Shown here piece after piece: positions 2,115 to 16,528 of a DNA stretch of 34,450 bases. The notes under the pieces were generated by a model. It was not told the origin of the DNA, did not search any database, and saw only the letters and a program-made list of their open reading frames with translations. Both the position numbers and the translations under genes were made by a program. How positions within the stretch are numbered: the stretch's first letter is position 1; each line of letters starts with the position of its first letter. Location of the stretch: positions 1 to 34,450 of the forward strand of contig SVGJ01000027.1 of NCBI GenBank assembly GCA_015056415.1, in the 5' to 3' direction. This stretch comes from Clostridiales bacterium. GTDB taxonomy: Bacteria > Bacillota > Clostridia > Christensenellales > Aristaeellaceae.

Positions 2115-2143
2115 TAGACTTTTCTTTCTATGCGTAGTATAAT
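2115..2143 (+). promoter_or_regulatory. Main promoter of the acyl-lipid operon
   Basis: A perfect TATAAT lies at 2138-2143, with TAGACT (4/6 match to TTGACA) at 2115-2120 and a 17-bp spacer. The -35 sits inside TTGTAGAC, which recurs in the same place in the promoter near 34366. The start would be near 2150, giving a leader of ~165 nt. A second TATAAT at 2220-2225, with only a weak -35, could be an inner promoter. Confidence 0.7.
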
Positions 2144-2313: not shown

Positions 2314-4257
2314 ATGACCCTGTCAGGCGCTCCCAATGGAAAGGGAATCGACGCATATGTTTCCGCTAAGCTTGAATACGCGCAAAGCCTTGATCATACA
2401 TTCGGTACGTTATTCAATCTGATGTTTTCTGAACGGGAAAATATCTTCTGGGAGACGAATGACGGCTTCAGCATCATCAAGACCACATACGGAGAAAGCG
2501 CGGACCGCATCCGCAGGCGCGCAGGCACCCTTGCACAGCGCCTGGGGGAGATCGGCCTGGCTGAGGATGCGGCGGTGGCCCTTTACATGGACAATTCGCT
2601 GGAATGGATCGAAATGTTCTGGAGCATTCTCCTGTGCGGACGCCGGCCCCTGCTCCTGAATCTGCGCATGAGCGACGCTATGCTGAACGGTGTGCTGGAA
2701 GCCATGCAGGTCTCCGCCGTTATTTCCGATGGCAAGCAGTTCCCCTGCCGGACGATCCTTGAAAGCGAGCTGGGCGAGGCGGAAACGCCTTTGCCGGAGG
2801 GCGCCTGCGGCCAGGAGATCCTGCTGATGTCCTCGGGCACCTCGGAGAATATCAAGGTCTGCGCGTATACCGCGGCGGAGATTTTTGCGCAGATCTCCAA
2901 TGCGGGCAGCATCATTCGCGAAAACAAGCGGATGAAGCGCCACTATGAGGGCTGCATCAAGCAGCTGACGCTCCTGCCCTTCTACCATGTTTTCGGCTTG
3001 TTTGCCGTCTATTTCTGGTTTGGCTTTTTCTCGCGTACGTTCGTCCATCTGCCGAATATGAATCCGCAGACGGTCCTGAACACCGTGCGCAAGCATAAGG
3101 TGACCCACATCTTCGCGGTTCCGCTCTTCTGGGATACGGTGTATCGCAGCGCGATCAGCACGATCAAGGGCCGGGGCAAGCAGACGGCGGACAAGTTCGC
3201 CAAGGGTATGCGGCTGGCCGCCAGGCTGGAGGACGTCCCCGTGCTGGGCGGTTTGTTCAGCCACATCGCCTTCGGTGAGATCCGCGAAAATCTCTTTGGC
3301 GAGAGCGTTCAGTTCTGCATCACCGGCGGCAGCGCGATCCGCCCGGAGGTGCTGCGGTTCTTCAATGCCATCGGCTATCACATCGCCAATGGCTACGGTA
3401 TGACGGAGATCGGGATCACCTCGGTGGAGCTCTCCAATAAAAAGAGCGTGCTGAACAGCGGCTCCATCGGCCGGCCTATGCGTTCGGTGCACTATGATTT
3501 GGCGGAGAACGGCTCGCTGCAGGTCAGCGGCGATTCCATCGCCCACGCGATCATCGAGGGCGGGAAGCGGCAGACGCTGGACGTCCGCGCGCTGGAGACC
3601 CACGATGTGATGCGTACCGAGGGCGGCCGCTATTACATCATGGGCCGCATGGATGACGTTATCATCTCCGCTACGGGCGAAAACATCAATCCGGATATCA
3701 TGGAGCAGGCATTTGACTTGCCCGAAGCCGAGGGTCACTGCCTGATCGCCGCCCGGGAGAACGACAGGGTCGTCCCCACGCTGATCGTTTCGGTGAAGCC
3801 CTACACCATGCCCGGCAGGATCGCCAGGCTTTCCGAATCGATCCAGGAGCAGATCGAAAGCAATCACTTCACCGGGCAGATCGCCAGGGTCGTCTTTGTT
3901 AGCGACAAGCTGATGAAGCCCACAGAGATCAAGGTGAACAGAAAGCGCCTTGCCCGGGATTACCAGGCGGGCAACCTGCATCCCATTGGCGAAACGGAGC
4001 GTCGCGACGAAGAGGTGCGCACGGAGATCCAGCAGCGGGTGATCCAGCTTATTGCCGAAACGTTGGACAAGAATGCCGATGATATCAGCCTTGGCAGCGA
4101 TTTCTTCCTGGATGAAGGCGGCACGAGCATGGATTATTACGCCCTGGCGGGCAAGCTGCACAGCGAGTTTGGGATCGACTTGTCCGGTGAATCGACAAAG
4201 AGCCTGTCTACCGTTCAGGAAATTTGTGCTTTTCTTGAGGAGAGGTTGCAAGCATGA
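2314..4257 (+). CDS. Acyl-AMP ligase fused to a C-terminal acyl carrier domain
   Basis: This is an ANL-superfamily adenylating enzyme (about residues 1-560) with a C-terminal carrier domain (about 570-645). It probably activates a fatty acid with ATP and loads it onto the phosphopantetheine of its own or a separate carrier. Visible motifs: P-loop-like SSGTSENIK at 173-181 (K181), YGMTE at 361-365, GRMDD at 444-448 and the likely catalytic Lys in the KPTEIK segment (K540). The usual TGD motif is replaced by THDVM, and the P-loop lacks the common TTG/PK signature, so this is a divergent family member. The carrier domain has GGTS with the attachment Ser at 605. It is the first gene of the operon; the next start overlaps its stop (ATGA). 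The substrate is unknown; a fatty acid is inferred from the neighbours. Confidence 0.88.
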   Translation: MTLSGAPNGKGIDAYVSAKLEYAQSLDHTFGTLFNLMFSERENIFWETNDGFSIIKTTYGESADRIRRRAGTLAQRLGEIGLAEDAAVALYMDNSLEWIEMFWSILLCGRRPLLLNLRMSDAMLNGVLEAMQVSAVISDGKQFPCRTILESELGEAETPLPEGACGQEILLMSSGTSENIKVCAYTAAEIFAQISNAGSIIRENKRMKRHYEGCIKQLTLLPFYHVFGLFAVYFWFGFFSRTFVHLPNMNPQTVLNTVRKHKVTHIFAVPLFWDTVYRSAISTIKGRGKQTADKFAKGMRLAARLEDVPVLGGLFSHIAFGEIRENLFGESVQFCITGGSAIRPEVLRFFNAIGYHIANGYGMTEIGITSVELSNKKSVLNSGSIGRPMRSVHYDLAENGSLQVSGDSIAHAIIEGGKRQTLDVRALETHDVMRTEGGRYYIMGRMDDVIISATGENINPDIMEQAFDLPEAEGHCLIAARENDRVVPTLIVSVKPYTMPGRIARLSESIQEQIESNHFTGQIARVVFVSDKLMKPTEIKVNRKRLARDYQAGNLHPIGETERRDEEVRTEIQQRVIQLIAETLDKNADDISLGSDFFLDEGGTSMDYYALAGKLHSEFGIDLSGESTKSLSTVQEICAFLEERLQA

Positions 4258-5561
4258 TCCGCCTATTCAACTGGTTTGTCAAGCTGACGGGCTACCTGCC
4301 GCAGCGGCTGGTGTTCCGCACCAAGGTGCATTACGAGGACGCCGCCACGCAGAAGCGCCACATCAAAGGCCCCGCGATCATTATTTCCAACCATACCAGC
4401 GTGATGGACTACGCGATGCTGATCTTCGTGTTCTTCACCCGCACGCTGCGCTGCCAGGCGGCTGAGCTGCAGTTCAACCGCCCGGTGATGGGCTGGTTTC
4501 TCAAGCTGCTGGGAGCGATCCGTGTTGACCGCAGCTTTGACGATATGAGCTGCGTGGGCAAGTCTGAGGCCATCCTGCGCAAGGGCGGTGTGGTCGCCAT
4601 CTTCCCCGAGGGCAGATTGCCCCTCGCCCAGGAAAAGACGCCCCTGCCCTTCAGGCACGGAGCCGCGTACCTGGCGCTCCATGCCGGCGTGCCGGTCATT
4701 CCGGTGTATTCCGATGGCAGGTACTTTGCAAAGGGACGGGCCCAGGTGGTGATTGGTAAACCCATCAACGTTCGCGCATTGTATGACGAAAGCAAATCGG
4801 AGCGCGAGAACCTGCAGGCCATCTCCCAGGCGTTTGCGCAGAAGGTGTACGGGCTGAAGGAGAAGATCGCCGAAAAGCCCGCCAGAAAGCGTGCCTACGG
4901 AATCGCGGCGAATCTGGCCTACGATTTCGTGAAGATCACCGCGGCGATCCCCGCGCTGATCTGGATGCGGCCCAAGTGGGTGAGCGTAGCCCGGGAATCG
5001 CGGCGCGTCCGAGGGCCGGCGCTGGTGGTCAGCAACCACAACAGCTTCTTCGATCCGATCGCCCTGATGGTGGCCGTGTTCTACTGCCGCTTCCGCTTCG
5101 TGGCGACGGAGGAGCTCTTTGCCGGCAAGTTCAAAAACTGGCTCTTCGGAAAGGTGTTCCGCTGCATTCCCATCGACAGAAAGAACATGAGGATGCAGAC
5201 CTTCCGCCAGGTCAACGAAGCGCTGAAAAGCAACGAGATCGTTGCCCTTTTCCCTGAGGGCCACGTCCTGACGGACGAGCAATCCCAGCAGGGAACGATG
5301 CGCTCGGGCATGGTGCTGATGGCCGCGCAGGGCAAATGCCCCATCGTACCCGTTTATATGCAGACCCCGGCGAAGTGGTATCACCGCCTGCGCATCGCCA
5401 TCGGCGAGCCCATTCAGGTGCAGACCAGGGGCATGATGCCCACCCTGGAGGAGATCAACCGGATCACCGGCGATGTGGCCTCCAGCATGAGGAGCCTGCG
5501 CGAGATCTGCTACAACGACCAGTATGCTCAGAAAAACAAGGGAGAGGAGATACCCCTATGA
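4254..5561 (+). CDS. Tandem two-domain PlsC-type acyltransferase
   Basis: The protein holds two copies of the 1-acylglycerol-3-phosphate acyltransferase fold. The first has the catalytic NHTSVMD motif (H47, D52) and FPEG at 117-120; the second has NHNSFFD (H262, D267) and FPEG at 333-336. Both copies keep the HX4D catalytic pair and the FPEG phosphate-binding motif, so both may be active. Single-domain PlsC proteins are typically ~200-250 residues; this one is 435. PlsC enzymes move acyl chains from acyl-ACP or acyl-CoA to lysophosphatidate or lysophospholipids at the inner membrane face. It starts in an ATGA overlap with the upstream ligase and ends in another with the next ligase, so the three are probably translationally coupled. 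Two successive acylations, or two different lysolipid acceptors, are both possible. Confidence 0.9.
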   Translation: MIRLFNWFVKLTGYLPQRLVFRTKVHYEDAATQKRHIKGPAIIISNHTSVMDYAMLIFVFFTRTLRCQAAELQFNRPVMGWFLKLLGAIRVDRSFDDMSCVGKSEAILRKGGVVAIFPEGRLPLAQEKTPLPFRHGAAYLALHAGVPVIPVYSDGRYFAKGRAQVVIGKPINVRALYDESKSERENLQAISQAFAQKVYGLKEKIAEKPARKRAYGIAANLAYDFVKITAAIPALIWMRPKWVSVARESRRVRGPALVVSNHNSFFDPIALMVAVFYCRFRFVATEELFAGKFKNWLFGKVFRCIPIDRKNMRMQTFRQVNEALKSNEIVALFPEGHVLTDEQSQQGTMRSGMVLMAAQGKCPIVPVYMQTPAKWYHRLRIAIGEPIQVQTRGMMPTLEEINRITGDVASSMRSLREICYNDQYAQKNKGEEIPL

Positions 5562-7063
5562 TCAAGACAAATGCTGAGGCCTTCCGGAAGTATTGCAGCG
5601 AGGAAACCTTCCAACGCATCCAGCCCTTTGAATCCATTTCCGCCATGTGGGATCATTGTGTCGCTTCCTATGGCGACCTGCCTGCCATCCGCACGGCTGC
5701 CGGGGCCTATACCTTCGCCGAGATGGAAAAGCACGTTGCCCACATCCGCGCGGCGCTGGCTGCCGCCGGCCTGAAGAAGGGCGACCGTGTGGCGCTGCTG
5801 GCTCCCAACGGTTATGCCTTCGCCGCCGCCAGCATGGCTATCATCACCTCCGGCATGTGTGCCGCCGTGCTGCCCGCCCACCTGGATGAGCGCGCCGTCT
5901 TTGGCCTGAGCATGAAGTTCGGCGTCAAGGGCATTCTGTTCGATCCCGCGCTGGAGGCCCGTACCAGCCTGGCCGCTGCCCTGGTGCGCCTGCCCATCGA
6001 GCTTTCCGCGGAAAACAGCGCTCCCGCCGTGGCCGCCAACGGCCAGGACGAGTGCGTGATCCTGCTCACCGGCGGTACCACCGGCCGCAGCAAGGGCGCG
6101 CTGCTCAGCCACGCGAACATCATGCAGGGCGTGATGAACAGCTGCTATGGCTATGAAGATGTCTTCCATCAGCGTTATTTGCTGGTGCTGCCCCTGTCCC
6201 ACGTGTTTGGCTTTGTGCGCAATATGATGGCCTCGCTGTACACCGGCAGCGAAATGTTCATCTGCGAGAACATGAGCGACCTGTTCCGCAACGCCATGAT
6301 GTTCCAGCCCACCATCCTGGTGGTGGTTCCCGCCCTGGCTGAGATGGCCCTGCGCCTCTGCCGCCAGATGAACCGCGATATGCTGGGCTCCCAGGTGAAG
6401 TACATCATCTGCGGCGCGGCCGTTGTTCCGCCCTATCTGGTCAAGGCTTATGCCGAGCGCGGCATCACGATGTGCCCCGGTTACGGCCTGACGGAATCCG
6501 CCAACCTGGTCTCCGGCAACCCCGAGGCGATCAAAAAGCCCACCTCTGTGGGTATTCCCTATCCCAACCAGGAGCTGCGCATCGAGAACGGCGAGCTGTG
6601 GCTGAAGGGCTCCAACATGATGCTGGGCTATGTCAACGAGCCCGAGGAGAACGAAGCCGCCTATACCGACGGCTGGTTCCGCACCGGCGATCTGGTCCGT
6701 CTGGATGAGGAGGGCTTCCTGTACATCACCGGCCGCACCAAGGAGATCATCGTGCTGCCCACCGGCGAGAACATCTCCCCCGCCGAGCTGGAGACCCTCT
6801 TCAACGAGCTGGACGTGGTGCAGGATTCCCAGGTGTTTGAGGATTACGGCCCCGATGGCGGCAGGATCCTGGCGCTGGAGGTCGTGCCGCGTGCCTTTGA
6901 GCTGACCGGTATTGAGGATCCCGGCGCTTACATCACCGAAAAGCTGCAGCAGGTGAACCAGTCCCTGCCGCCCTTTAAGCGCGTTTCCCGCATCGAGATC
7001 CGCACCACGGATTTCGAGCGTACGCCCGCCATGAAGATTGTGAGGTACAAGAAATGCAACTGA
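5558..7063 (+). CDS. Acyl-CoA/acyl-ACP synthetase (AMP-binding ligase)
   Basis: This canonical 501-aa ANL ligase is likely to activate a carboxylic acid to acyl-AMP and pass it to CoA or to the ACP encoded next. Motifs: TGGTTGRSKG at 171-180 (P-loop), YGLTE at 309-313, RTGD at 375-378, GRTKE shortly after, and the catalytic Lys at K493 in the PAMK segment near the C-terminus. The start at 5558 is chosen because it forms ATGA with the upstream stop and GGAGAGGAG precedes it; the open frame further upstream has no such site. Unlike the first ligase it has all core motifs and no carrier domain. It overlaps the ACP gene by 10 bases, so ACP is its probable partner. A fatty acid substrate is inferred from context. 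Confidence 0.9.
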   Translation: MIKTNAEAFRKYCSEETFQRIQPFESISAMWDHCVASYGDLPAIRTAAGAYTFAEMEKHVAHIRAALAAAGLKKGDRVALLAPNGYAFAAASMAIITSGMCAAVLPAHLDERAVFGLSMKFGVKGILFDPALEARTSLAAALVRLPIELSAENSAPAVAANGQDECVILLTGGTTGRSKGALLSHANIMQGVMNSCYGYEDVFHQRYLLVLPLSHVFGFVRNMMASLYTGSEMFICENMSDLFRNAMMFQPTILVVVPALAEMALRLCRQMNRDMLGSQVKYIICGAAVVPPYLVKAYAERGITMCPGYGLTESANLVSGNPEAIKKPTSVGIPYPNQELRIENGELWLKGSNMMLGYVNEPEENEAAYTDGWFRTGDLVRLDEEGFLYITGRTKEIIVLPTGENISPAELETLFNELDVVQDSQVFEDYGPDGGRILALEVVPRAFELTGIEDPGAYITEKLQQVNQSLPPFKRVSRIEIRTTDFERTPAMKIVRYKKCN

Positions 7064-7311
7064 CCCGCAGCGATATTCTCGCAAAGCTCAAGGAGATCAT
7101 GCAGAGCATGTACGATACCCCCTCCGCCCAGATCCAGGCGGCAACGGAGGAGACCCGGCTGATCGAGGAGCTCGGCTTCACCTCTGTCAGCTATCTGTAC
7201 ATGGTCATCATCGTTGAGGAGAACTTTGGCGTCCGCTTTGATCAGGTGGGCGGCAACCAGTTCCAGACCGTCGGCGACGTGATCACCTATATCCAGAGCC
7301 AGCAGTCATGA
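7054..7311 (+). CDS. Acyl carrier protein
   Basis: This 85-residue acidic helical protein is the size and pattern of a free ACP. The attachment Ser is S44 in LGFTS (the family more often shows DSL at this point), followed by the helix-II hydrophobic pattern. It would carry an acyl chain on 4'-phosphopantetheine between the ligases, the PlsC protein and the LRAT domain. It lies between an acyl ligase (10-bp overlap) and the fused phosphopantetheinyl transferase (ATGA overlap), so the operon carries its own ACP and its own activating enzyme. It is unlikely to be the housekeeping fatty acid synthesis ACP, because no fab genes are near and DSL is absent. Confidence 0.92.
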   Translation: MQLTRSDILAKLKEIMQSMYDTPSAQIQAATEETRLIEELGFTSVSYLYMVIIVEENFGVRFDQVGGNQFQTVGDVITYIQSQQS

Positions 7312-8345
7312 AATGGTGGCCTGGAAAATGTAAGCCCGGAGACATGATCCGCGTGAAGCTGGGGCCGCTTTACCACTACGGGATCTTCGTCTCTGACCAG
7401 GAGGTCATCCAGTTCGGTCATCCCCACCGTGACCGGAATGCTGCGAGCCCGGGCGAAGATATACGCGTCTTCGCCGGTTCCGCCTCCGAGTTTGCAGCGG
7501 GGAATATGATCGAGGTGGCCGGCATGGATCTGCGGGAGCGCATGAGGCGCTTCCCACCCCGGAAAACCATCCGGCTGGCACGCTCGCGGATCGGCGAAAA
7601 CGGATACGACATCCTGCACAACAACTGTGAGCATTTTGCCAATATGTGCGTATTCGGCAAGAAGATCTGCCTGCAGACGGATCGCATCGTCGCACAGTGG
7701 CGGACGCGGCCCATCCTGGATGTGTATCTGTGCCCGGTGGAGGAATGTGCGGATGGCGCGTCCACACCGGTTGAGTTGCGCGAAAAGCACATCAGCCGCG
7801 TGAAGGATCCCGAGCTGCTCAGGCAGAAGCGGGCTTCATGGAAGCTGCTGGAGTACGCCATGATGCGCTCCTGCGGGCAGAAGATGAGCGATGCCCGGTT
7901 CGCCCTGAGCAGCGGCGGCAAATGGACCTGCGACAAGCTGAGCTTCTCCATCGCCCACACGGCGGGCTGGGTGGCTGTGGCGGTGTCGAACGAGCCGGTG
8001 GGTGTGGACATAGAGGAGACGGACGCCTTTTCCATGCGTGATCCGGCCCAGCTCACGCCCATGATCTGCACGGATGCCGAACAGGCCGCCAACCCGGCGC
8101 CTGAGGATCTGATGCGCCTGTGGCTCTGCAAGGAAAGCATCTTCAAATGCGGGGGAAAGGGCAAATTCGTTCCCAAACGCATCCCGGCGGATTCGGAGCC
8201 TACGGTCTGCCTGTCCGCGGTGTCCGGGACGCCCCTGGCGCTGGCTGTGGCGGGTAAAAATCTCTCAAAGCTTCGCCTGTACCGGTATGAGGCGTCAAGC
8301 GGCGCAACGCCCATTGAGCTGAAGGCTGGGGAGAAAAGCAAATGA
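7308..8345 (+). CDS. LRAT-like acyltransferase fused to 4'-phosphopantetheinyl transferase
   Basis: Two enzymes appear joined. Residues ~1-135 look like an LRAT/NlpC-P60-type fold: GDMIRV, then YHYGIFV with H23, and NNCEHFAN with the putative catalytic C107. The position where vertebrate HRASLS enzymes have a second His is Gln (Q35), with H38 and H40 nearby. LRAT-family enzymes form an acyl-Cys intermediate and move acyl groups between lipids, alcohols and amines. Residues ~160-345 look like an Sfp-type phosphopantetheinyl transferase: FSIAH, VGVDIE (D234, E236, metal binding) and WLCKES (E276). That domain would convert apo-ACP (previous gene) and the ligase-ACP fusion to holo form. The reading frame is continuous, with no internal ribosome binding site noted between the parts. 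Its start overlaps the ACP stop (ATGA). I know of no described protein with this pairing. Confidence 0.82.
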   Translation: MKWWPGKCKPGDMIRVKLGPLYHYGIFVSDQEVIQFGHPHRDRNAASPGEDIRVFAGSASEFAAGNMIEVAGMDLRERMRRFPPRKTIRLARSRIGENGYDILHNNCEHFANMCVFGKKICLQTDRIVAQWRTRPILDVYLCPVEECADGASTPVELREKHISRVKDPELLRQKRASWKLLEYAMMRSCGQKMSDARFALSSGGKWTCDKLSFSIAHTAGWVAVAVSNEPVGVDIEETDAFSMRDPAQLTPMICTDAEQAANPAPEDLMRLWLCKESIFKCGGKGKFVPKRIPADSEPTVCLSAVSGTPLALAVAGKNLSKLRLYRYEASSGATPIELKAGEKSK

Positions 8346-9256
8346 AAGTGTTCCTATGGATCGTGATCGGCGGCGGGATCTTCTTCGCGCTGCCATCCAC
8401 GATGTACCTGGCTGTTTTCAAGGGGATCTTCGGGCGTGTCAAGCTGCCCGAACCTGACCTGAAGGTCTGGTGCCGCGGGGATGAAGCGCTGGAGACGCTC
8501 TACTGCGAGGCGCTGGAGGAGTTCAAGGCGCTGCGGTTCCGCGATGTGACCATCGAAGCCTTTGATGGCAAGCGGCTGCACGGCAGATACCTGAACCGGG
8601 AAAACAGCAAGCTGATGATCCTGGCCCACGGCTATCGTACAAGGCCGGAGATCAACTTCGCTCCGCAGATACAGGATTTTCTTGCCCAGGGGTTTGATCT
8701 GCTGCTCATCGATCATCGCGCTCACGGGCAAAGCCAGGGCCTCTTCGGCAGCATGGGCAGCCTGGAGGGCCGGGACGTGCTGAGCTGGATCGACTGGGCG
8801 CCCTATGAGCAGGTCGTGGTGTATGGCGTATCCATGGGCTGCGCCGCTGTGGGCCATGCCTCGGGGAAGATCAGGGATGGCAAGGTGCGCGGACTGATCA
8901 TGGATTGCGGCTTCAGCAATTTCTATGATGAGCTGAATTACAAATGTGACCTGTGGAAGATGAAAAAGACCGGGTTTGCCAACGCGGAAAACCTGCTGGC
9001 CAAGCTGTTCCTCCGCGTTGACCTGAAGGAGAACACCGCCTCCTCGCTGAAGCGATGCAAGGTTCCGATATTCTTTATCCACGGCGCCCTGGACGACGAG
9101 GTGCCTGTACAGGAGCTGTACCGGCAATATGAGGCCTGTGCCTCGGCAAGGCAAAGCCTCGTGATCGAAAACGCGCATCATGCGTTGGCCTATGCCATGG
9201 GCGGTGAGCGCTCAAGGCAGGCGATACGCTGCTTTCTGGAGCAATGCACCGGTTAA
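8342..9256 (+). CDS. Membrane-anchored alpha/beta hydrolase (Ser nucleophile)
   Basis: A 304-residue alpha/beta hydrolase of the serine aminopeptidase/monoacylglycerol-lipase type. An N-terminal hydrophobic helix (~3-27) probably anchors it in the membrane. The oxyanion-loop AHGY is followed by the nucleophile elbow YGVSMG (S164), an acid at D251/D252 in GALDDE, and His at 279-280 in NAHHALA. Likely roles are lipase, lysophospholipase or thioesterase, fitting release of fatty acids from lipid or from ACP. The start overlaps the previous stop (ATGA). It is the first of three hydrolases in the operon; the other two share the N-terminal membrane segment. Confidence 0.85.
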   Translation: MKVFLWIVIGGGIFFALPSTMYLAVFKGIFGRVKLPEPDLKVWCRGDEALETLYCEALEEFKALRFRDVTIEAFDGKRLHGRYLNRENSKLMILAHGYRTRPEINFAPQIQDFLAQGFDLLLIDHRAHGQSQGLFGSMGSLEGRDVLSWIDWAPYEQVVVYGVSMGCAAVGHASGKIRDGKVRGLIMDCGFSNFYDELNYKCDLWKMKKTGFANAENLLAKLFLRVDLKENTASSLKRCKVPIFFIHGALDDEVPVQELYRQYEACASARQSLVIENAHHALAYAMGGERSRQAIRCFLEQCTG

Positions 9257-9284
9257 TGAACCCCACCGAAAAGGAGGACGTCCA

Positions 9285-10238
9285 ATGAAGCATGATTTTT
9301 GTATCATCTCTGAATCCACCTGTGACCTGAGCGAACAGATCCGCACAGAATTCGACATCGGATACATTCCGGGACATGTGCTGCTGCCTTCCGGGGTGCA
9401 AGTCGCCGCACGGCTGGATTGGGATGCGTATGAAAGCTATTCAAACGGCAGCGCGGAAACATTCTATGCCAACCTGATGAAGGATCCCGACCGATTCAAG
9501 ACCTCCCCCTGCAATGTGCAGGAGATCTACGAGGAGCTCCTCCGCCGTGTTGAGGCGGGCCAGGGTGTGCTGATGACCTGCATCTCCTCCAAGATGAGCG
9601 GCACGTATTCCTTTGCCTGCGAGGCCCGCGCCAAGGTGCTGGAGGTCTGCCCCGACGCGCAGATCCGCATCGTGGATACCAGGCGCTACAGCGTCTGTAA
9701 CGGTCTGATGTGCATTTACGCCTCCATCATGCGCGGGCAGGGCAAAACGCTGGACGAGATCGCTGATTATCTGGAGCAGAACCGCCTGTGCTTCCATCAG
9801 ATGGGCTGGCACGATAACCTGAGCTTCGTTGCAAAGAAGGGCCGCATCACCCACAGCACGGCCTTCATGGGCCGCCTTGTCGGCATCAAGACCCTGGGCG
9901 AATGCTCCGCCACCGGCATGACGACGGTGATCGGCAAGGTCAAGGGTACGCCAAAGGCCCTGCGCGCCGTGATGGAGTATATCGCTCAGACTATCGTCCG
10001 GCCTGAGGAGCAGACCATCATTATCGGCCATTCCAGCCGCCTGCCCGGCGCGGAAGAGCTGAAAAAGCTGATCGAGGAGCGCTTCCATCCCAAGGCGGTG
10101 TACATCTGCGATATTTTCCCGTCCTGTGGCGTGAACATCGGCCCCGGTCTGGCCGCTGCCTATTATTTCGGCAAGCCGGTCTCCGACGACCTGGCGGAGG
10201 AGCGGGAGCTGCTCAACAACATTGTGGCGCAGTCATAA
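9285..10238 (+). CDS. DegV family protein (FakB-like fatty acid-binding subunit)
   Basis: A 317-residue DegV protein. The start at 9285 follows AAGGAGG (9271-9277); the upstream open frame has no such site. Family marks: SESTCDL near the N-terminus (usually DSTADL), ISSKMSGTYS at 100-109, and GVNIGPG near the C-terminus. DegV proteins bind a fatty acid in a buried pocket and, as FakB, present its carboxylate to the kinase FakA, which makes acyl-phosphate for phospholipid synthesis. A FakA-like kinase is encoded two genes downstream, so a complete FakAB pair is likely in this operon. Chain preference cannot be read from sequence by eye. Confidence 0.9.
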   Translation: MKHDFCIISESTCDLSEQIRTEFDIGYIPGHVLLPSGVQVAARLDWDAYESYSNGSAETFYANLMKDPDRFKTSPCNVQEIYEELLRRVEAGQGVLMTCISSKMSGTYSFACEARAKVLEVCPDAQIRIVDTRRYSVCNGLMCIYASIMRGQGKTLDEIADYLEQNRLCFHQMGWHDNLSFVAKKGRITHSTAFMGRLVGIKTLGECSATGMTTVIGKVKGTPKALRAVMEYIAQTIVRPEEQTIIIGHSSRLPGAEELKKLIEERFHPKAVYICDIFPSCGVNIGPGLAAAYYFGKPVSDDLAEERELLNNIVAQS

Positions 10239-10246
10239 TATTATAG

Positions 10247-10288
10247 GGGACTGATCATAGAGGACTGATCATAGAGGACTGATCATAT
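10247..10288 (+). repeat. Three tandem 14-bp repeats carrying Shine-Dalgarno cores
   Basis: The unit AGGACTGATCATAG occurs three times in a row (10247-10260, 10261-10274, 10275-10288), with one mismatch in the first copy and one in the last, where it merges into the ATG at 10287. Each copy carries a GGA core and the palindrome TGATCA. The last GAGG (10274-10277) is 9 bases before the transporter start and is its ribosome binding site. Confidence 0.9.
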
Positions 10289-11648
10289 GAAAAAAATCAC
10301 GAGCAAAGGTAAACTTCTCCTGTACGGTATGTCCGCGCTGGGCTTCAACATGATGAACCTGGTGATCGGCTCCTACCTGTGCGACGCGCTGATGGTCGAG
10401 GGCTTCGACGTCAACGTCGAAAGCTGGACCTATGCCAACAAGACGCTTATCGTGGCGGGCCTGTGGTCTGTTTTCATCCTGATTTCCAAGGTGCTGGACG
10501 GCGTGATCGATATTCCGATGGCTGCCTGGACCGATAAGCTCAAGTCCCGCTGGGGACGCCGCCGCCCGGCCATTCTGGTGGGCATGGTGCTGACCATCGT
10601 GGCGTATCTTGCGTTCCTGGTCATCCCTTCCAATGCCGAGCACAGCATGGGCAACACCATTTACTTCGGGATCATGCTCGTCCTGTTCTATTCCTCCTAT
10701 ACGCTCACGCTGGTGGCTTACTATGCCACCTTCTCCGAGATCGTCGATAACGAGAAGGACAGGCTCCGCCTTTCCAACTACAAGACGGTCTTTGACGTTG
10801 TGTATTTCGTGCTGGGCTACGCGCTGATCCCCGCGCTGGTGGGCGCGATGAACATTCGCGTGATCGCGCTGCTGTTTGCCCCCCTGGCGCTGACGATGCT
10901 TATCCCGCTGTTTATGATCAAGGAGCGCTCCACCCTCGACCAGGATCAGGAGCCTGCTGAGAAAGGGGCCGGGGAAGAAGAGCAGACTGTCGGCATGGTG
11001 CAGTCCGTCCGCTATCTGCTGGGCAACCGCGCGTTCCTGATGTGGATGCTGGTCTATTCCGCCCTCCAGTTTGGCCTGCAGCTGTTCCTGACGGGCCAGA
11101 ACGTGTTCTATTCAAGCGTCATGAAGTTCAGCGGTCTGCAGATCACCCTGGTTATGGCCTTTGCCTTTGCACCCGTCCCGCTTACCCTGATGCTCTATAC
11201 TTACATCGTCAAGAAACGCGGCCTGATCACCGGCTACCGTTATTCGCTGGTGCTGTACCTGCTTTCCATGGCGACCATGATGCTGTGCCGCGCGGACTGG
11301 ATCCAGAGTGACGTCATCCGCGTGAGCCTCGCCATCGTTGGCGCGATCCTTTCCGCCTTCGGCACCGGGTGCTTCTTCTCCATCAACTACACGATCCCCT
11401 CCGCCATTGCGGATAAGGAGCGCCGGGAGAAGGGTATTTCCCATCCCGCTATGTTCTTTGCCGTGCAGGGCCTGATCGGCGGTATTGCCACCGGCATTTC
11501 CACCGGTATCATCTGGGTCAACCTGAAGGATTACCAGGACGGCGCCATCGTGTGGCTCATGCCCGTGATCGTCATTGCCGGCGGACTTGTTTCGTACGCG
11601 CTGACCTATCTGCTCCCCAAGGATATCCGCTTCCTGGGCAAGGAATAA
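10287..11648 (+). CDS. GPH/MFS_2 family cation-coupled transporter
   Basis: A 453-residue polytopic membrane protein with about 12 hydrophobic segments. The signature DIPMAAWTDKLKSRWGRRRP around residues 75-95 is typical of the glycoside-pentoside-hexuronide:cation symporter group (MFS_2, MelB-like). The basic/acidic linker after ~210 is the central cytoplasmic loop. Most bacterial members move sugars, but the same superfamily includes the vertebrate lysolipid symporter MFSD2A. It lies between the FakB-like and FakA-like genes in a lipid operon, so a fatty acid, lysophospholipid or acylated product is a reasonable substrate guess. A sugar cannot be excluded. Translation starts from the last of three repeated ribosome-binding units. 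Confidence 0.87.
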   Translation: MKKITSKGKLLLYGMSALGFNMMNLVIGSYLCDALMVEGFDVNVESWTYANKTLIVAGLWSVFILISKVLDGVIDIPMAAWTDKLKSRWGRRRPAILVGMVLTIVAYLAFLVIPSNAEHSMGNTIYFGIMLVLFYSSYTLTLVAYYATFSEIVDNEKDRLRLSNYKTVFDVVYFVLGYALIPALVGAMNIRVIALLFAPLALTMLIPLFMIKERSTLDQDQEPAEKGAGEEEQTVGMVQSVRYLLGNRAFLMWMLVYSALQFGLQLFLTGQNVFYSSVMKFSGLQITLVMAFAFAPVPLTLMLYTYIVKKRGLITGYRYSLVLYLLSMATMMLCRADWIQSDVIRVSLAIVGAILSAFGTGCFFSINYTIPSAIADKERREKGISHPAMFFAVQGLIGGIATGISTGIIWVNLKDYQDGAIVWLMPVIVIAGGLVSYALTYLLPKDIRFLGKE

Positions 11649-11666
11649 GGCAAGGTGAGGTCGCTT

Positions 11667-13316
11667 ATGGATAAAGTGAAGCAAGTGTTTGAGATCAACG
11701 GACATGATTTCGAGCGGATGGTGCGCAATGGCCTGGCTAACCTGAGCCAGCACGTGGACGAGATCAATGCGCTGAATGTTTTCCCTGTCCCCGATGGCGA
11801 TACGGGCAGCAATATGTATCTCACGCTGAAAAACGCGGTGGATCAGGCTGAAGGCAACAGGGATCTGCATGAGTACCTGCGCAGCCTGAGCGCCATGATG
11901 CTGCTGGGGGCGCGGGGCAACTCCGGCGTGATCCTCTCGCAGCTGTTCAAGGGCTTTGCCGAGCGCCTGCAGGGCAAGGACGAGGCGGACGCGGGCGATC
12001 TGTGCGCCGCTTTGATCTCTGCCTACAAGACGGCCTATGCCTCGGTCAAACGCCCGGTGGAAGGCACGATGCTGACCGTGGCCCGCGAGGGCATCGAAAA
12101 ATCCCGCAGCCAGATCAAGAGAAATATGCCCATCGACAGGGTGCTTTCCTTCTATCTGGTGGAGATGCGCAGGAGCCTATCCTACACGCCCACCCTGCTC
12201 CTCGCACTCCGGGAGGCCGGCGTGGTCGACAGCGGCGGAATGGGCTATATCCTGATCATCGAGGGTATGCAGAAGGAGCTTTACGGCGAAGCCATCCAGA
12301 TGACCGAGGCTTCACAGCAGCTGGCAGCCCCGGCACCCGCCATCAACACCGAGGGATTTGACGCGGATGCGGAGTTCACCTTCGGATACTGCACGGAGTT
12401 CCTGCTGCAGCTGCTCAAATCCCATGCGGATATCGATGATTTCGATCCCAACGCCTTTTCTGACGCGCTGGGCGAGTTTGGCGATTCCATTGTGGTCGTT
12501 CAGGATGGGGACAGGGTCAAGGTGCATGTGCATACCCAAACCCCCGCGAAGGCCATCGAATACGCGCAACGCTATGGCGAGTTTATTTCCTTCAAGCTGG
12601 AAAATATGCATCTTCAGCACAGCCGGTTTGTAACCACGGCCCAGAAGAAGCATTTCCCCATTGCCGTGCTTGCCGCCTGCAATGGCGATGGCATGGCAAG
12701 GCTCTACAAGGAATTTGATTATTGCCGCGTCATCAACGGCGGCGAGCTGATGAACGTCTCCTGCCAGGAGTTCATCAACGCCTTTGACAGCGTGGACGCC
12801 GATCACCTGATCGTGCTGCCCAATAACAAAAACACCATCAGCGCGGCCCAGCAGGCGGCAAAGCTCAGCAAGAACAAGAACATCAGCGTGCTTTCCTCCG
12901 CCAATGTGGTGCAGGGCTACCTGGCGCTGTCCATGGACATGCCCAGCGATACCGTGGAGGAGCGCATCACCGCGTTCCATGAAAACGTCGGCGACGCGCT
13001 GACGGTCTGCGTGGCGCGGGCAGTGCGTGCCAGCGTGGTGAACGGCGAGACCTGCAATGCCGGCGACTATCTGGCCTTCATGAACGGCAAGGTGATCGCC
13101 CGGGATACCGATGTCGTGCAGCTGATCCAAAAGGTGGTGGGCGCGCCGGAGATGGACGCCGCGCCGGAGGTCATGCAGATATTCTGGGGCGCTGCCGTAA
13201 ACACGGAGCAGTGTATGCGATTGGGAAACGCGATCGAAGACGCTTTTGCGGGGATGGAGATCATCCATGTGGACTCGGGCCACGCGATCTACGACCTGAT
13301 CATCAGCCTGTCGTAA
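11667..13316 (+). CDS. fakA: FakA-like fatty acid kinase (DhaL/DAK2 domain protein)
   Basis: A 549-residue protein with the YloV/FakA layout: an N-terminal DhaL kinase domain (~1-200), a middle linker/domain, and a C-terminal DegV-related domain. NVFPVPDGDTGSNM carries the Mg/ATP-binding Asp pair D43 and D45. GARGNSGVILSQ and DSGGMG are further DhaL marks. FakA phosphorylates a fatty acid held by a FakB (DegV) protein to give acyl-phosphate, which PlsX/PlsY systems use. The start at 11667 is preferred over a GTG at 11655 because AAGGTGAGG (11652-11660) lies 6 bases before it. FakA is often a single housekeeping gene; here it sits inside an operon with ligases, a carrier and acyltransferases and may be a dedicated second copy. 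Confidence 0.9.
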   Translation: MDKVKQVFEINGHDFERMVRNGLANLSQHVDEINALNVFPVPDGDTGSNMYLTLKNAVDQAEGNRDLHEYLRSLSAMMLLGARGNSGVILSQLFKGFAERLQGKDEADAGDLCAALISAYKTAYASVKRPVEGTMLTVAREGIEKSRSQIKRNMPIDRVLSFYLVEMRRSLSYTPTLLLALREAGVVDSGGMGYILIIEGMQKELYGEAIQMTEASQQLAAPAPAINTEGFDADAEFTFGYCTEFLLQLLKSHADIDDFDPNAFSDALGEFGDSIVVVQDGDRVKVHVHTQTPAKAIEYAQRYGEFISFKLENMHLQHSRFVTTAQKKHFPIAVLAACNGDGMARLYKEFDYCRVINGGELMNVSCQEFINAFDSVDADHLIVLPNNKNTISAAQQAAKLSKNKNISVLSSANVVQGYLALSMDMPSDTVEERITAFHENVGDALTVCVARAVRASVVNGETCNAGDYLAFMNGKVIARDTDVVQLIQKVVGAPEMDAAPEVMQIFWGAAVNTEQCMRLGNAIEDAFAGMEIIHVDSGHAIYDLIISLS

Positions 13317-13334
13317 GGAGGGACGAAGCTCTTG

Positions 13335-14270
13335 ATGTATTTGTGGTACATTCTTGGTTTCGTTGTGTTGTCGGGCATACTGATCATGTGCGTGGTGGTG
13401 CCGGCGATCGTTACCACGAAGGTGTTCGTCCGCGTGAGCAAGAAGAAATGGCATTACAACTGCCAGGAGCCCGGCGACGTGGAGCAGGTGGAGCTGTACC
13501 GGGAGGCGACCGAATGGGCCGACCGGTACGCGGCGAACCGCAAGCCCGTCCACACGACCAGCGACGGCTTTCACCTCTATGGCGAGTATTACGACTTTGG
13601 CTGCAAACGGGCTGTTATCATCATCGCCGGCCGCACGGAGGCGTGCCGGTACTCCTGCTATTTCGCGGAGGCATACCGGCGCGCGGGCTACAACGTGCTG
13701 ACCATCGATAATCGCTCCCACGGCAATTCCGACGGTGTGGTGAATACCCTGGGCATCCGCGAGCATCGGGACATCCTGTGCTGGATGCGCTTGCTCCACG
13801 ATGAACTGCATAACGACGGCGTGATCTGCCACGGCATCTGCATCGGCTCGGCCACGGCGCTGTATGCGCTGGTGCATGAGCAGTGTCCCGATTATGTGAA
13901 CGGTATGGTCGCCGATGGTATGTATGTGCACTTTGGCGAATCCTTCAAGAATCACCTGATCGAAAGAAACAAGCCCATTTTCCCGTGCTATCAGGTCTGC
14001 ATGGCGCTGGTGGGCATGGTGGCGGGGCGCAATCCCCGGAAGTTCGGCCCCCAGAATGTGATCCACAAGCTGCGCAAGCCGATCCTCTTCCTGCACGGCA
14101 AGGAGGATATTTACTCCGTGCCTGAAAAGGCGGAGATCCTGTATGAAAAGTGCGCCGCGAAGAAGAAGCTTGTCTGGTTTGACAAGGGGCGGCATTCCTT
14201 CCTGCGGTATCACGCGCCGGAGAAGTATGACCAAACCATCGTGGATTTCCTCAGCGAGCTGGACGCCTGA
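13335..14270 (+). CDS. Membrane-anchored alpha/beta hydrolase with Cys at the nucleophile position
   Basis: A 311-residue alpha/beta hydrolase with an N-terminal membrane helix (~3-28). The nucleophile elbow reads HGICIGS, with Cys169 where Ser is usual. The acid is likely D258 (HGKED) and the base H287 (GRHSF). TIDNRSHGNSDG is the typical strand-5 region. Cys nucleophiles occur in dienelactone hydrolases and some thioesterase-like enzymes and favour acyl transfer or specialised hydrolysis over general lipase action. The start could instead be a TTG at 13332; the ATG at 13335 is chosen, with GGAGGG 12 bases upstream. The gene follows fakA closely and belongs to the same operon. Confidence 0.84.
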   Translation: MYLWYILGFVVLSGILIMCVVVPAIVTTKVFVRVSKKKWHYNCQEPGDVEQVELYREATEWADRYAANRKPVHTTSDGFHLYGEYYDFGCKRAVIIIAGRTEACRYSCYFAEAYRRAGYNVLTIDNRSHGNSDGVVNTLGIREHRDILCWMRLLHDELHNDGVICHGICIGSATALYALVHEQCPDYVNGMVADGMYVHFGESFKNHLIERNKPIFPCYQVCMALVGMVAGRNPRKFGPQNVIHKLRKPILFLHGKEDIYSVPEKAEILYEKCAAKKKLVWFDKGRHSFLRYHAPEKYDQTIVDFLSELDA

Positions 14271-14303
14271 CGATGACCTCGGTTGAAAGGAGAGCTGATC
14301 GGT

Positions 14304-15533
14304 ATGTCTGATAAGGATTCATCCTTTTTCCCGCTGAGTTCGATCCTGGGCAACCTTCACCGGGTGCTGACAAAGGGCAGCGCCGAGAATGACGTGAGCA
14401 GCTTGCCCTCGCTTTCCGACAAGAAGGAGAGCGAGACCTCCGGCAGGAATCAGGGGCAGGGCTCGAAGACCTTCCTGAAGACCATGGCGATTCTTGGCGC
14501 CGGAACGCTGGCTGTTACGGGCAGCGTGGGCCTGTATCAGAAGATGTTCTCCCGATATGAAAGGCCCGATTACGCGGTGACGCCCGGCGTATACTGCTAC
14601 GAGCGCATCGCTGACCGGCTTTCGCGCAGGGAAGTGCCTTTCTACTCAGGCGATACCAGGCTGGCCGGATATTACTATCCGGCGGCAAACGCCAAGGGGC
14701 TTGTGGTCTTTGCCCACGGCTTCCATGCGGGCGCAGATGACTATCTGCCGGCGTTTGAATTCCTGGTGCGGAATCAATACGCTGTGTTCGCCTTTGACAT
14801 GAAGGGCACCTACGATTCGGAGGGAGATTCGACGGTCGGCCTGCCCGAGGCCCTGGTGGACCTGGACGCCGCGCTGAATTTCGTCAAATCCCAGGCGGAG
14901 TTCCGGAAATATCCGCTGTTCCTGCTGGGCCATTCCTGCGGGGGATACGCGGTGACGGCCGTGCTGAACCTGCACAAGGATATTCTGGCCTGCGCGGCGA
15001 TCGCCCCCATGAATCAGGCAGCGAACATGATCATCGAAAAGGGTGAGTTGTACACCAGTATGCTGCCCACCGATATCCTCACCGACCTGCCCGCGGCATT
15101 CCTGATCCCGTATCAGAAGCACCTCTTCGGAGAATACGCGGATCTGACGGCGGTGCGCGGCATCAACAGCACGGAGACCGCTGTGCTCATCGCCCACGGC
15201 GACAGGGACATGGTCGTTGATTTCAACACGCCGCTGTCCGTCATCGGCCGGAGCAAGCAGATCCGCTCGGAGAATGTATACTATTACGTTGGCAGCGACG
15301 AGCAGAGCGGCCACGACAGCGTGTGGCATTCCACTGACGCGGTCCAGTATCAGAAGTGGGTGAAAAACAAGGTCAAGGAGTTGAACCGCGAAGAGGAATT
15401 GCAGTATAATGAACAAGTGCTGTTCTACGCCAGCGTTGACCATGAGCGCTACAGCGCCATTAATGAAGAGCTGTTCTCGCAGATCCTCGATCTGTACGAT
15501 TCGGCTCTGAATAAAGTCATCATAAGCTATTAA
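14304..15533 (+). CDS. Alpha/beta hydrolase with N-terminal tail and membrane helix
   Basis: A 409-residue protein. The first ~50 residues are polar (likely cytoplasmic), followed by a hydrophobic helix at ~55-75 and then an alpha/beta hydrolase domain. The oxyanion region is FAHGF, the nucleophile elbow GHSCGG (S211), the acid probably D300 or D302 (AHGDRD) and the base H337 (SGHDS). A further ~55 residues extend beyond the fold. The start at 14304 has AAAGGAGAG upstream; a TTG at 14283 overlaps that site and is less likely. It is the third hydrolase of the operon and may deacylate lipids or carrier-bound acyl groups; the substrate is not visible. Confidence 0.84.
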   Translation: MSDKDSSFFPLSSILGNLHRVLTKGSAENDVSSLPSLSDKKESETSGRNQGQGSKTFLKTMAILGAGTLAVTGSVGLYQKMFSRYERPDYAVTPGVYCYERIADRLSRREVPFYSGDTRLAGYYYPAANAKGLVVFAHGFHAGADDYLPAFEFLVRNQYAVFAFDMKGTYDSEGDSTVGLPEALVDLDAALNFVKSQAEFRKYPLFLLGHSCGGYAVTAVLNLHKDILACAAIAPMNQAANMIIEKGELYTSMLPTDILTDLPAAFLIPYQKHLFGEYADLTAVRGINSTETAVLIAHGDRDMVVDFNTPLSVIGRSKQIRSENVYYYVGSDEQSGHDSVWHSTDAVQYQKWVKNKVKELNREEELQYNEQVLFYASVDHERYSAINEELFSQILDLYDSALNKVIISY

Positions 15534-15551
15534 AGAAAGGAGGAATGAACA

Positions 15552-16013
15552 ATGTATTGTCGTAAGTGTGGAGCATACGTCCCCGGTAATGAGGAGTATT
15601 GCGAAAACTGCCGTGTGGAGCTGGCCGCGCAGAAGGAGGTGACTCCCCGGCTGGATATGTCCGCCGAGGGCCGTGGCGCCGCGATCGCATCGATCGTGCT
15701 GGGCGTGGTGAGCCTGGTGCTGATGTTCGTTGCCATCATCTGTCTCGCGGCTGAGAGTGTTGGCGGCGCTGTGTTTGTGGGCCTGGCCTGCCTGGCCTGC
15801 ACCGTGCTGGGCATCATCAACGGTATCCGCGGCATTGTCGCCTTCCGCCGCGCCTGCAGGGCAAAAGCTTCCAAGCCCATCGCTTCGCTGGTTTGCGGTA
15901 TCGTGGGTCTTGAGATCGCAGCGGTAACCCTGATCTACCTGTTTTGCCTTGGCTTTGTTGGCGCTATCGCGCTGGCTGTGTCCGACTCGTCAAGTTACTA
16001 CCGATATTATTGA
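15552..16013 (+). CDS. Zinc-ribbon membrane protein (DUF4190-like), copy 1
   Basis: A 153-residue protein with an N-terminal zinc ribbon (CRKCG and CENC, a CX2C pair repeated) and three to four hydrophobic segments from ~45 to 145. The layout (ribbon, then a helix-rich DUF4190-like region with GIINGIRG) is common in Bacillota and has no defined function. A strong AAAGGAGG lies just upstream. It is 17 bases after the third hydrolase and in line with the operon, so it probably works at the membrane with it, for example as a scaffold. A near-copy follows immediately. Confidence 0.8.
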   Translation: MYCRKCGAYVPGNEEYCENCRVELAAQKEVTPRLDMSAEGRGAAIASIVLGVVSLVLMFVAIICLAAESVGGAVFVGLACLACTVLGIINGIRGIVAFRRACRAKASKPIASLVCGIVGLEIAAVTLIYLFCLGFVGAIALAVSDSSSYYRYY

Positions 16014-16030
16014 TCAAGGAGGAATAAATC

Positions 16031-16459
16031 ATGTATTGTCGCAATTGTGGAACGGTTGTCCCCGGTAACGAGGATCTCTGCGAAGCCTGCCGCATGGAGC
16101 AGATCATTCAGAAGGATCAGTCCGCTCCCCGGCCGGATATGTCCGGCGAGTGCCGCGGCGCTGCCATCTGCTCCGCTATTCTGAGCTTTGTGGGCCTGAT
16201 CCTGTCCATTGTCGCCCTGGCGCTGGCTATGGAAGAGCTCGTTGGCGGTTTTGTTTTCATCACCATGGCTGGCCTGGCCTGCAGCGTCATCGCGCTGATC
16301 AACGGCATCCGCGGCATTTCCGCCTTCACTCGCGCCGGCCGGCTGGGCGCTACGCGTCCCATCGCCTCGCTGATCTGCGGTATCATTGGCGTATCCGTTA
16401 CGGCTTTTGCCCTGCTCTACTGGTTCATCGCGATCATTGGTGCTATTGCTTCGTTCTGA
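16031..16459 (+). CDS. Zinc-ribbon membrane protein (DUF4190-like), copy 2
   Basis: A 142-residue paralogue of the preceding gene: the same MYCR-CG opening, VVPGNE, CEAC, the INGIRGI turn and the RPIASLICGI helix. It is a tandem duplication that has since diverged, mainly in the linker after the ribbon and in the last helix; the C-terminal Tyr/Ser tail of copy 1 is missing. It has its own AAGGAGG site and is the last gene of the operon, 30 bases before a strong terminator. Confidence 0.8.
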   Translation: MYCRNCGTVVPGNEDLCEACRMEQIIQKDQSAPRPDMSGECRGAAICSAILSFVGLILSIVALALAMEELVGGFVFITMAGLACSVIALINGIRGISAFTRAGRLGATRPIASLICGIIGVSVTAFALLYWFIAIIGAIASF

Positions 16460-16488: not shown

Positions 16489-16528
16489 GAACGCCCGCGT
16501 GTCACAGGACGCGCGGGCGTTCTTTATT
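16489..16528 (+). terminator. Terminator of the acyl-lipid operon
   Basis: A perfect 11-bp GC-rich stem, GAACGCCCGCG (16489-16499) with CGCGGGCGTTC (16512-16522), is followed by TTTATT. No comparable stem with a T-run was seen inside the operon from 2314 to 16459, which supports a single long transcript. Confidence 0.88.

Follow-up and report, generated by a model that had tools for sequence, protein, structure and literature searches.

A conserved thirteen-gene operon of Clostridia that links ligase-carrier and FakAB-like genes and may serve acyl-chain capture and re-acylation

Two described routes for the activation of fatty acids come closest to the gene system considered here. In the LplT-Aas system of Escherichia coli, a major facilitator superfamily (MFS) transporter, a PlsC acyltransferase, and an acyl-ACP (acyl carrier protein) ligase are encoded together; according to the cited account, lysolipid is flipped, acyl-ACP is made, and acylation follows, with the participation of a carrier (PMC11416262). 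In the FakAB system of Staphylococcus aureus, the reported catalytic residues of the kinase FakA are Asn32, Asp38, and Asp40 at the Mg/ATP site and Cys240, His282, and His284 in the middle domain (PMC9136124). Here, we analyze a 13-gene operon (genes 1–13, Table 1) on a 34,450-nt stretch of contig SVGJ01000027.1 (the window, to which all coordinates and strands refer), in which relatives of both routes stand side by side. With moderate confidence, the operon is read from its sequence as a system for the capture, activation, and re-acylation of acyl chains in bacteria that mostly lack fatty-acid synthesis of their own. LplT-Aas together with FakAB appears to be its nearest working analogy, although the operon is a curated member of neither.

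Compared with LplT-Aas, the operon carries its ligase and PlsC functions on separate genes, contains two ligases, two PlsC units, and its own carriers and phosphopantetheinyl transferase (PPTase), and encodes a transporter of the MFS_2 rather than the LplT family; a Fak-like kinase, an LRAT protein, and hydrolases are added. Membership in Aas/LplT fails because curated scores (115.9 versus 1221 bits for the Aas model PRK08633, far under its cut-off), gene structure, and transporter family all differ. The likeness to FakAB lies in a FakA with the reported catalytic residues, a DegV protein with the GR-motif Arg, and the presence of PlsX beside FakA in some sister loci. Here too the curated equivalog models score below cut-off, both FakA_VfrB (377.9 versus 975 bits for gene 9) and FakB1 (67 versus 350 bits for gene 7). 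The operon kinase is also embedded among ligases, PlsC, MFS_2, and a Cys-nucleophile hydrolase, unlike that of FakAB.

On the evidence of comparative searches, the operon is a conserved gene system. Gene 1, encoding an acyl-AMP ligase with a carrier domain (ligase-ACP), was searched for in 300 genomes of the family, 396 of the order, and 391 of the class, and the loci found were then fetched and read. The resulting layout table holds 37 loci (L numbers) from 35 genomes (G numbers), the window included; loci were chosen by a gene 1 or gene 5 match, which biases the presence counts of these two genes upward, and all counts refer to tabled loci rather than to frequencies. All nine class-level matches outside the window's own genome were tabled, as were 19 of the 28 order-level genomes with a gene 1 match (left out were G079, G345, G366, G384, G401, G454, G504, G513, and G523); at the family level, 117 genomes had a match, 13 were fetched widely, and 9 of these were tabled. 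The genomes are drafts, and contig ends cut L029, L067–L071, L081, L154, and L156. Within this set, gene 1 is present in 35 of the 37 loci and is accompanied by PlsC in 34 of the 35, the exception being L156, which is cut by a contig end. LRAT occurs in 24 and the second ligase in 18 of the 35 ligase loci. FakA is found in 21 of the 37, always with DegV, and 19 of these 21 also hold a ligase-ACP gene; MFS_2 is found in 24 of the 37. A near-complete set running in one direction recurs in eight loci from five families (the window, L026, L095–L098, L100, and L101), with gaps in L095 and L100 (no second ligase or gene 4) and in L098 (no gene 6). At the protein level, identity to the window is approximately 25–65%, depending on gene and locus. 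The ligase-PlsC linkage and the eight near-full loci thus reinforce the view of the genes as one conserved system, and the gene order kept across families rules out chance neighbors.

Reading of the loci revealed two modules, often merged and sometimes apart. The first comprises ligase-ACP, PlsC, PlsC, ligase, ACP, and a PLAAT-like LRAT protein with or without PPTase; the second comprises a FakB-like protein, FakA, MFS_2, PlsC, and the alpha/beta-hydrolase with a Cys nucleophile. In L104 and L106, the order is ligase-ACP, MFS_2, PlsC, PlsC, ligase, ACP, LRAT, with no FakAB. Conversely, the minimal loci L153–L155 consist of DegV, FakA, MFS_2, ligase-ACP, PlsC, and gene 10, with no LRAT; their content equals that of LplT-Aas (transporter, acyltransferase, acyl-ACP ligase) plus FakAB. 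The two module groups lie adjacent on opposite strands in L105 and at separate loci in G377 (L103/L163) and G638 (L106/L159). The first-pass annotation had proposed that the operon joins the ligase/ACP and Fak routes and had named a split of the genes into separate loci in related genomes as evidence to the contrary. The joining does recur (19 loci with ligase-ACP, FakA, and DegV), but the modules are separable, the Fak module standing apart in G377 (L163) and G638 (L159).

The setting in which the operon occurs bears on its supply. Fatty-acid synthesis was assessed with two ketosynthase domains, PF00109 (FabF/FabB) and PF08545 (FabH). PF00109 was undetected in 40 of 45 genomes, including that of the window and all 18 from its genus, and matched in 14 of 14 controls; PF08545, with a weaker control (10 of 14 matching), was undetected in 40 of 45 genomes and in 17 of the 18 of the genus. 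Neither domain was found in 37 of the 45. The draft genome of the window is 84% complete, and PF00109 was also undetected in 20 of the 23 genomes with a completeness of 90% or more and a contamination of 5% or less. The test included 29 of the 35 operon genomes, and 22 of the 29 had neither domain. Matches to PF00109 were seen in G324 and G609 (each two matches, in a frame of approximately 800 aa), G435 (weak), G975, and G1007, and matches to PF08545 in G002, G527, G606, G975, and G1007. Among the 13 operon proteins themselves, no beta-ketoacyl synthase match was obtained with Pfam or NCBIfam, as had been noted from the letters alone. Because ketosynthases are mostly undetected, the chains handled by the operon are most likely ready-made; the earlier suggestion that ready-made acyl chains are probably its supply is thereby strengthened. 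Fatty-acid auxotrophy may extend over a large lineage. The uncultured gut order RF39 is reported to have lost fatty-acid synthesis completely, and Fak-type uptake has been suggested for it (PMC6784871). The window genome itself encodes PlsX and an AcpS-type PPTase.

The kinase and its partner retain the relevant residues. Alignments covered 12 of the 21 tabled loci with FakA, 19 of the 24 with LRAT, 11 of the 20 with gene 10, 13 of the 24 with MFS_2, and 23 of the 35 with gene 1, as well as 14 DegV proteins. Gene 9 matches the FakA structure 7w7h at E 1.3e-152, and its Asn41, Asp47, Asp49, Cys246, His291, and His293 are invariant (12/12), matching the S. aureus catalytic set, with equivalence assigned by motif position. 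In DegV, Arg188 of the GR motif is present in 14/14 and is equated, by motif and by alignments to Protein Data Bank (PDB) entries, with FakB Arg173, which is essential for phosphorylation; GxN-xGPG is present in 13/14. PlsX adjoins FakA at the operon in L149 and L151 and elsewhere in L157 and L158, and lies within 3 kb in L165, which supports a predicted fatty-acid phosphate chemistry. In L157, L158, and L165, as in L149 and L151, FakA and PlsX are also grouped with one or two DegV genes in clusters of their own.

FakA was found in all 19 genomes searched for it, and 13 of the 14 genomes with FakA in an operon or module-2 locus carry another copy elsewhere (the exception is G377). The second FakA of the window genome lies on contig 28 and is 34% identical. 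In a 38-row FakA tree, 10 window-type operon proteins form one clade (98/99) and 13 non-operon copies another (100/100). Six more rows labelled non-operon sit outside the main group. Four make up a separate clade, the second copy of G069 stands alone, and the last is G377, whose copy (L124), labelled as lying elsewhere, proved on reading to belong to a module-2 locus. The label "operon" needs three changes on this tree, and operon FakA proteins as a whole are not one clade. The phylogeny indicates that the window-type operon FakA is a special paralogue, and the second copy in its own genome together with the tree rules out that it is the sole or housekeeping FakA.

The carriers and acyltransferases are likewise intact in their motifs. 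The carrier Ser605 of gene 1 is invariant (23/23). The free-standing ACP scores 17.1 bits against a Pfam cut-off of 20.8 bits, and its carrier Ser is nonetheless kept in 9/9 aligned. Gene 2 has HX4D and FPEG motifs in each half, and its counterpart in relatives is often split into two genes; across 39 homologous PlsC frames, HX4D is found in 38 (all except the first PlsC of L108) and F/YPEG in 29. Gene 3 is 34–58% identical to 15 homologues. In gene 10, Cys170 (within GxCxG), Asp259, and His288 are invariant (11/11), and the gene is present in 20 of the 21 tabled loci with FakA and in none of the 16 without; the exception, L070, ends within FakA. A Cys nucleophile in the alpha/beta-hydrolase fold is known from polyhydroxyalkanoate (PHA) synthases; hence, acyl transfer by gene 10 would be as possible as hydrolysis. 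The presence of the set, its intact motifs (carrier Ser, HX4D, and FakA residues), and its linkage are thus evident at the sequence level.

A scheme for acyl-chain capture and re-acylation can be proposed. The MFS_2 transporter would bring a lysolipid or an acylated nutrient across or between the leaflets, and acyl chains would be freed by membrane hydrolases, among them the FakA-linked enzyme with the Cys nucleophile. The FakB-like and FakA proteins would phosphorylate the freed chains, and the acyl-phosphate could reach ACP via PlsX. The ligases would charge two carriers, activated by the PPTase half, directly with further chains, and the tandem PlsC proteins would transfer the loaded chains to a lyso- or glycerol acceptor. 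In a further branch, the PLAAT-like LRAT might take an acyl chain off a lipid or a carrier and pass it, via a Cys thioester, to another lipid. The first-pass annotation had left two readings standing: a salvage and remodeling module, or synthesis of an acyl lipid through LRAT. The gene content appears to favor salvage and re-acylation over an LRAT product, because the minimal loci L153–L155 lack LRAT; the LRAT product is possible, as LRAT is present in 24 of the 35 ligase loci.

Several observations weigh against this proposal. Seven of the 29 operon genomes tested show a PF00109 or PF08545 match. The operon is sporadic, only 2 of the 18 genus genomes having a gene 1 match at E<=1e-40 and one of these being a variant layout; it is therefore not needed for life without fatty-acid synthesis. 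In 14 of the 35 ligase loci, neither FakA nor DegV was found; five of these are cut by contig ends (L067, L068, L081, L156, and L029), and in the others (L099, L102–L104, L106, L108, L150, L030, and L072) both are missing from the part that was read. The fetched loci L073–L076, excluded from the table, have a gene 1-like match and no other operon gene. In the DegV proteins, the position before the GPG loop is Asn in 13/14 and Ser in 1/14, versus His in all three PDB alignments shown. In FakB, this His has a functional role. Among other DegV proteins, Asn is again seen in L148, L159, L163, and one of the two L152 copies. Both copies of L149, L151, and L158, the second L152 copy, and L157 have Ser, Cys, or Thr, and L165 has His. 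Gene 8 is MelB-like by sequence, and MFSD2A gave no match to it even at E<=10. The sequence does not pin down the acyl substrate of the ligases, whose closest solved structures include benzoate, oxalate, and succinylbenzoate ligases. Finally, specialized-lipid or natural-product synthesis is as typically marked by a dedicated PPTase, two carriers, and sporadic spread as salvage is.

The alternative that survives best is the synthesis of a special N- or O-acyl lipid, in which scavenged chains would be loaded on two carriers, PlsC would form a diacyl intermediate, LRAT would add the N- or O-acyl group, and MFS_2 would move the product, with FakAB and the hydrolases only supplying chains. PLAAT/HRASLS (LRAT) acyltransferases of vertebrates acylate phosphatidylethanolamine. 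The operon LRAT resembles them in its profile match to PLAAT structures, its catalytic His and Cys, and its NCEHF motif. Its Pfam score far exceeds the cut-off (65.8 versus 24.3 bits), every PDB structure matched by a profile of 19 LRAT sequences belongs to the PLAAT/LRAT family (9 sequences at E<=0.01, best 2.7e-13), and the PLAAT-like His23 and Cys107 are invariant in 19/19 aligned. It differs from PLAAT in being fused to a PPTase (9 of the 19 aligned), in its linkage to carriers, and in its second triad residue, which is mostly Gln and not His (Gln 13, His 3, Ala 2, Glu 1). In the superfamily, the third triad residue is described as a variable polar residue (PMC7387801). The PPTase metal motif GxDxE is kept in 8 of the 9 fusions, L103 being without it.

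A bacterial precedent is available in staphylococci, where LnsA, an NlpC/P60-type enzyme with remote LRAT-type relatives, is reported to be required together with LnsB for lipoprotein N-acylation, the two being encoded at separate loci in S. aureus (PMC7387801). The operon differs in having no LnsB-like partner: the LnsB-like (CPBP) family has no match among the 13 operon proteins, to which that search was confined. The fused PPTase, the dedicated carriers, and the third ligase-carrier in variant loci L029 and L030 are further points in favor of an acyl lipid, as is a ligase-ACP-aminotransferase fusion in the family (one protein scanned), which suggests special lipids made from loaded chains. 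Against it stand the absence of LRAT from the minimal and type-C loci (L107, L109, and L153–L155) and of any amine-making, glycosyl-, or head-group enzyme, as well as of an LnsB-like match, among the 13 proteins. Because LRAT is so often linked and LnsA provides a precedent in the cited account (PMC7387801), this alternative is retained, if on the unlikely side.

Other occurrences of LRAT were also recorded. A gene 5 search of contigs returned five loci with LRAT as the sole match, and the LRAT-only or PPTase-only loci L028 and L031–L033 contain no further operon gene. In a search of 100 relatives for LRAT-PPTase, 21 had some match, and the full-length fusion was found in one other genome only, G069. 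Two further, weakly LRAT-like proteins (216 and 244 aa) lie near the operon at L149:16659 and L150:18620, in two class-level genomes. The third ligase-carrier proteins (L030:6528-8435 and L029:1000-2610) follow LRAT, in the place taken in the window by the PPTase half and hydrolases; in L029, the copy has a very weak AMP-binding domain score.

A second alternative places the operon in non-lipid acyl metabolism: the ligases would act on aromatic, dicarboxylic, or other acids, and a small acylated metabolite would be made or salvaged and exported by a MelB-like symporter. The best curated models do include menE for gene 1 and many different acid ligases for gene 3, the nearest ligase structures are those of varied acid ligases, and the transporter is nearest to sugar symporters. 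When gene 8 was compared with solved transporters up to E 10, MelB-type proteins and one sucrose carrier matched and nothing else, and its NCBIfam matches are gph/MelB-type symporters only. Asp71 and Asp75 of MFS_2 are invariant (13/13) and presumably correspond to the cation-site pair of MelB. LplT, MFSD2A, and a sugar symporter were each considered as the identity of gene 8, and the matches, confined to MelB-type proteins and the one sucrose carrier, do not decide between them. Nevertheless, the two PlsC units, the PLAAT-like domain, DegV, and FakA all belong to lipid or fatty-acid families, and PlsC is present in 34 of the 35 ligase loci; a non-lipid pathway is accordingly judged improbable. 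In L099, L102, L103, L104, L106, and L108, MFS_2 measures 610–660 aa with an extra C-terminal part, which in L106 has a weak DUF4234 match, and is placed between gene 1 and PlsC.

That housekeeping lipid genes merely lie together, with no joint pathway, is very improbable and appears already strained by the paralogue pattern: although content and order differ between families and modules can be apart (G377, G638), 13 of the 14 genomes with a locus FakA have another, the window-type FakA forms its own clade, the window genome has a separate PlsX, AcpS-type PPTase, and second FakA, and the genes overlap and keep their order over five families.

The organization of the window's operon is given in Table 1. 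Its 13 open reading frames (ORFs) run head to tail on the + strand over positions 2314-16459; genes 1–6 overlap one another by 4–10 bp, and later genes are spaced by 6–48 bp, 48 bp being the widest internal gap. The ORF list, these short gaps and overlaps, and the Pfam and NCBIfam matches bear out the first-pass description of a 13-gene same-strand unit with the domains named. That description also placed the unit between one promoter region and one terminator. The terminator is strong, whereas the promoter-like site, approximately 170 bp upstream of gene 1, is a consensus-level match in a region where such sites are barely above chance (12 seen versus 8.2 expected). Within the operon, the stems of terminator-like matches span just 5–7 pairs, and no Rfam elements were found in 1700-16700. 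Three membrane hydrolases had been listed; a clear N-terminal hydrophobic helix is seen in genes 6 and 10, but none in gene 11 at the same threshold. Similarly, for the ACP gene and the two zinc-ribbon proteins, the carrier Ser and the hydrophobic stretches are present, but the scores lie under the Pfam cut-offs.

Table 1. Genes and signals of the operon in the window
Feature	Coordinates	Strand	Evidence
Promoter-like site TAGACT-17-TATAAT	2115..2143	+	consensus scan alone, 10/12
Gene 1: acyl-AMP ligase + C-terminal carrier (ACP) domain, 647 aa	2314..4257	+	PF00501 114.8 bits; PF00550 40.5 bits
Gene 2: tandem PlsC-type acyltransferase, 435 aa	4254..5561	+	PF01553 162.8 bits, 2 stretches
Gene 3: second acyl-AMP ligase, 501 aa	5558..7063	+	PF00501 192.6 bits
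Gene 4: free-standing ACP, 85 aa	7054..7311	+	NCBIfam ACP model E 3e-10, under its curated cut-off
Gene 5: LRAT (PLAAT-like) fused to PPTase, 345 aa	7308..8345	+	PF04970 65.8 bits; PF01648 33.8 bits
Gene 6: alpha/beta hydrolase, 304 aa	8342..9256	+	PF12146 40.5 bits; N-terminal hydrophobic helix 3-21
Gene 7: FakB-like DegV protein, 317 aa, ATG 9285	9285..10238	+	TIGR00762 166 bits vs cut-off 99.7
Gene 8: MFS_2 transporter, 453 aa	10287..11648	+	PF13347 122 bits; nearest solved structure MelB, E 1.4e-4
Gene 9: FakA-like kinase, 553 aa, GTG start	11655..13316	+	TIGR03599 (YloV model) 502 bits vs cut-off 396
Gene 10: membrane-anchored alpha/beta hydrolase, Cys nucleophile (GxCxG)	13335..14270	+	PF12146 54.8 bits
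Gene 11: alpha/beta hydrolase (GHSxG), 416 aa	14283..15533	+	PF12146 66.4 bits; no clear membrane helix
Gene 12: small zinc-ribbon membrane protein, 153 aa	15552..16013	+	weak Zn_Ribbon_1/DUF4190 under cut-off; 2 hydrophobic stretches
Gene 13: small zinc-ribbon membrane protein, 142 aa	16031..16459	+	weak DZR_2 under cut-off; 3 hydrophobic stretches
Intrinsic terminator	16489..16522	+	15-bp stem, then T-rich tail; -31.8 kcal/mol, z -5.6 vs shuffles

Relatives of gene 13 occur at the 3' end of some loci, and a relative of gene 11 stands directly upstream of gene 1 in L068–L070, L095–L097, and L101. In L070 (G324), a resolvase-family recombinase gene (L070:10070-10690) lies just before the operon-flanking hydrolase gene, a hint of mobility. 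Foreign origin was considered on the basis of composition, and G+C content (0.589 in the operon versus 0.612 in 16600-34450) gave no clear sign of it. Upstream of the operon lie a tRNA-Asn (2-76) and a 459-aa ORF (393-1772) with no Pfam match. Right after the terminator, within 16540-17667, a strong promoter-like site, TTGACG-17-TATAAT (11/12), precedes an esterase gene (PF00756), which is probably a separate unit.

Ligase-carrier fusions recur beyond the operon. In the window's family, most of the listed gene 1 matches fall in frames of approximately 1,050–1,200 codons, at 26–33% identity. One of these, L074:3595-7017 (1141 aa), was scanned for domains and comprises an acyl-AMP ligase, an ACP, and a class I/II aminotransferase, the others being judged by length; this layout is as expected for a putative fusion of acyl-ACP ligase, carrier, and serine-palmitoyltransferase-like (SPT-like) enzyme. 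The long frames in many family genomes suggest sphingolipid-type synthesis from loaded fatty acids. In the window genome, no match of this length was found at E<=1e-40. In the ligase-ACP-SPT sphingolipid sets described for Caulobacter, a dedicated acyl ligase and carrier similarly feed a lipid-making enzyme; by comparison, the operon has PlsC acyltransferases and no PLP-dependent condensing enzyme (PMC9386255). That ligase-carrier fusions supply acyl-ACP for special lipids where fatty-acid synthesis is lacking fits these observations. A bolder extension, offered tentatively and rather unlikely in its entirety, is that in bacteria without fatty-acid synthesis, cis-acting ligase-carrier modules replace it as the source of acyl-ACP. 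The operon would then be a self-contained assembly line in which two loaded carriers, two steps by PlsC, and transacylation of the PLAAT type lead to a new multi-acylated membrane lipid, with the Fak-like kinase and the Cys-nucleophile acyl hydrolase/transferase recycling chains.

At the level of titles and abstract openings, literature on LRAT-PPTase clusters, fatty-acid-auxotrophic bacteria, and ligase-ACP-SPT sets yielded no account of the operon, which is not a claim of its absence from print. Its significance lies in the recurrent linkage of two fatty-acid activation routes that the cited LplT-Aas and FakAB accounts treat apart (PMC11416262, PMC9136124), in a bacterial group with largely undetectable fatty-acid-synthesis ketosynthases. 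Biochemistry gains concrete new targets in the paired Cys hydrolase and the Asn-type DegV. If the salvage and re-acylation reading holds, the operon would provide a bacterial PLAAT-like enzyme with a defined partner set, would predict culture-medium needs (fatty acids or lysolipids), and would offer a testable answer to how such bacteria channel acyl chains into their lipids.

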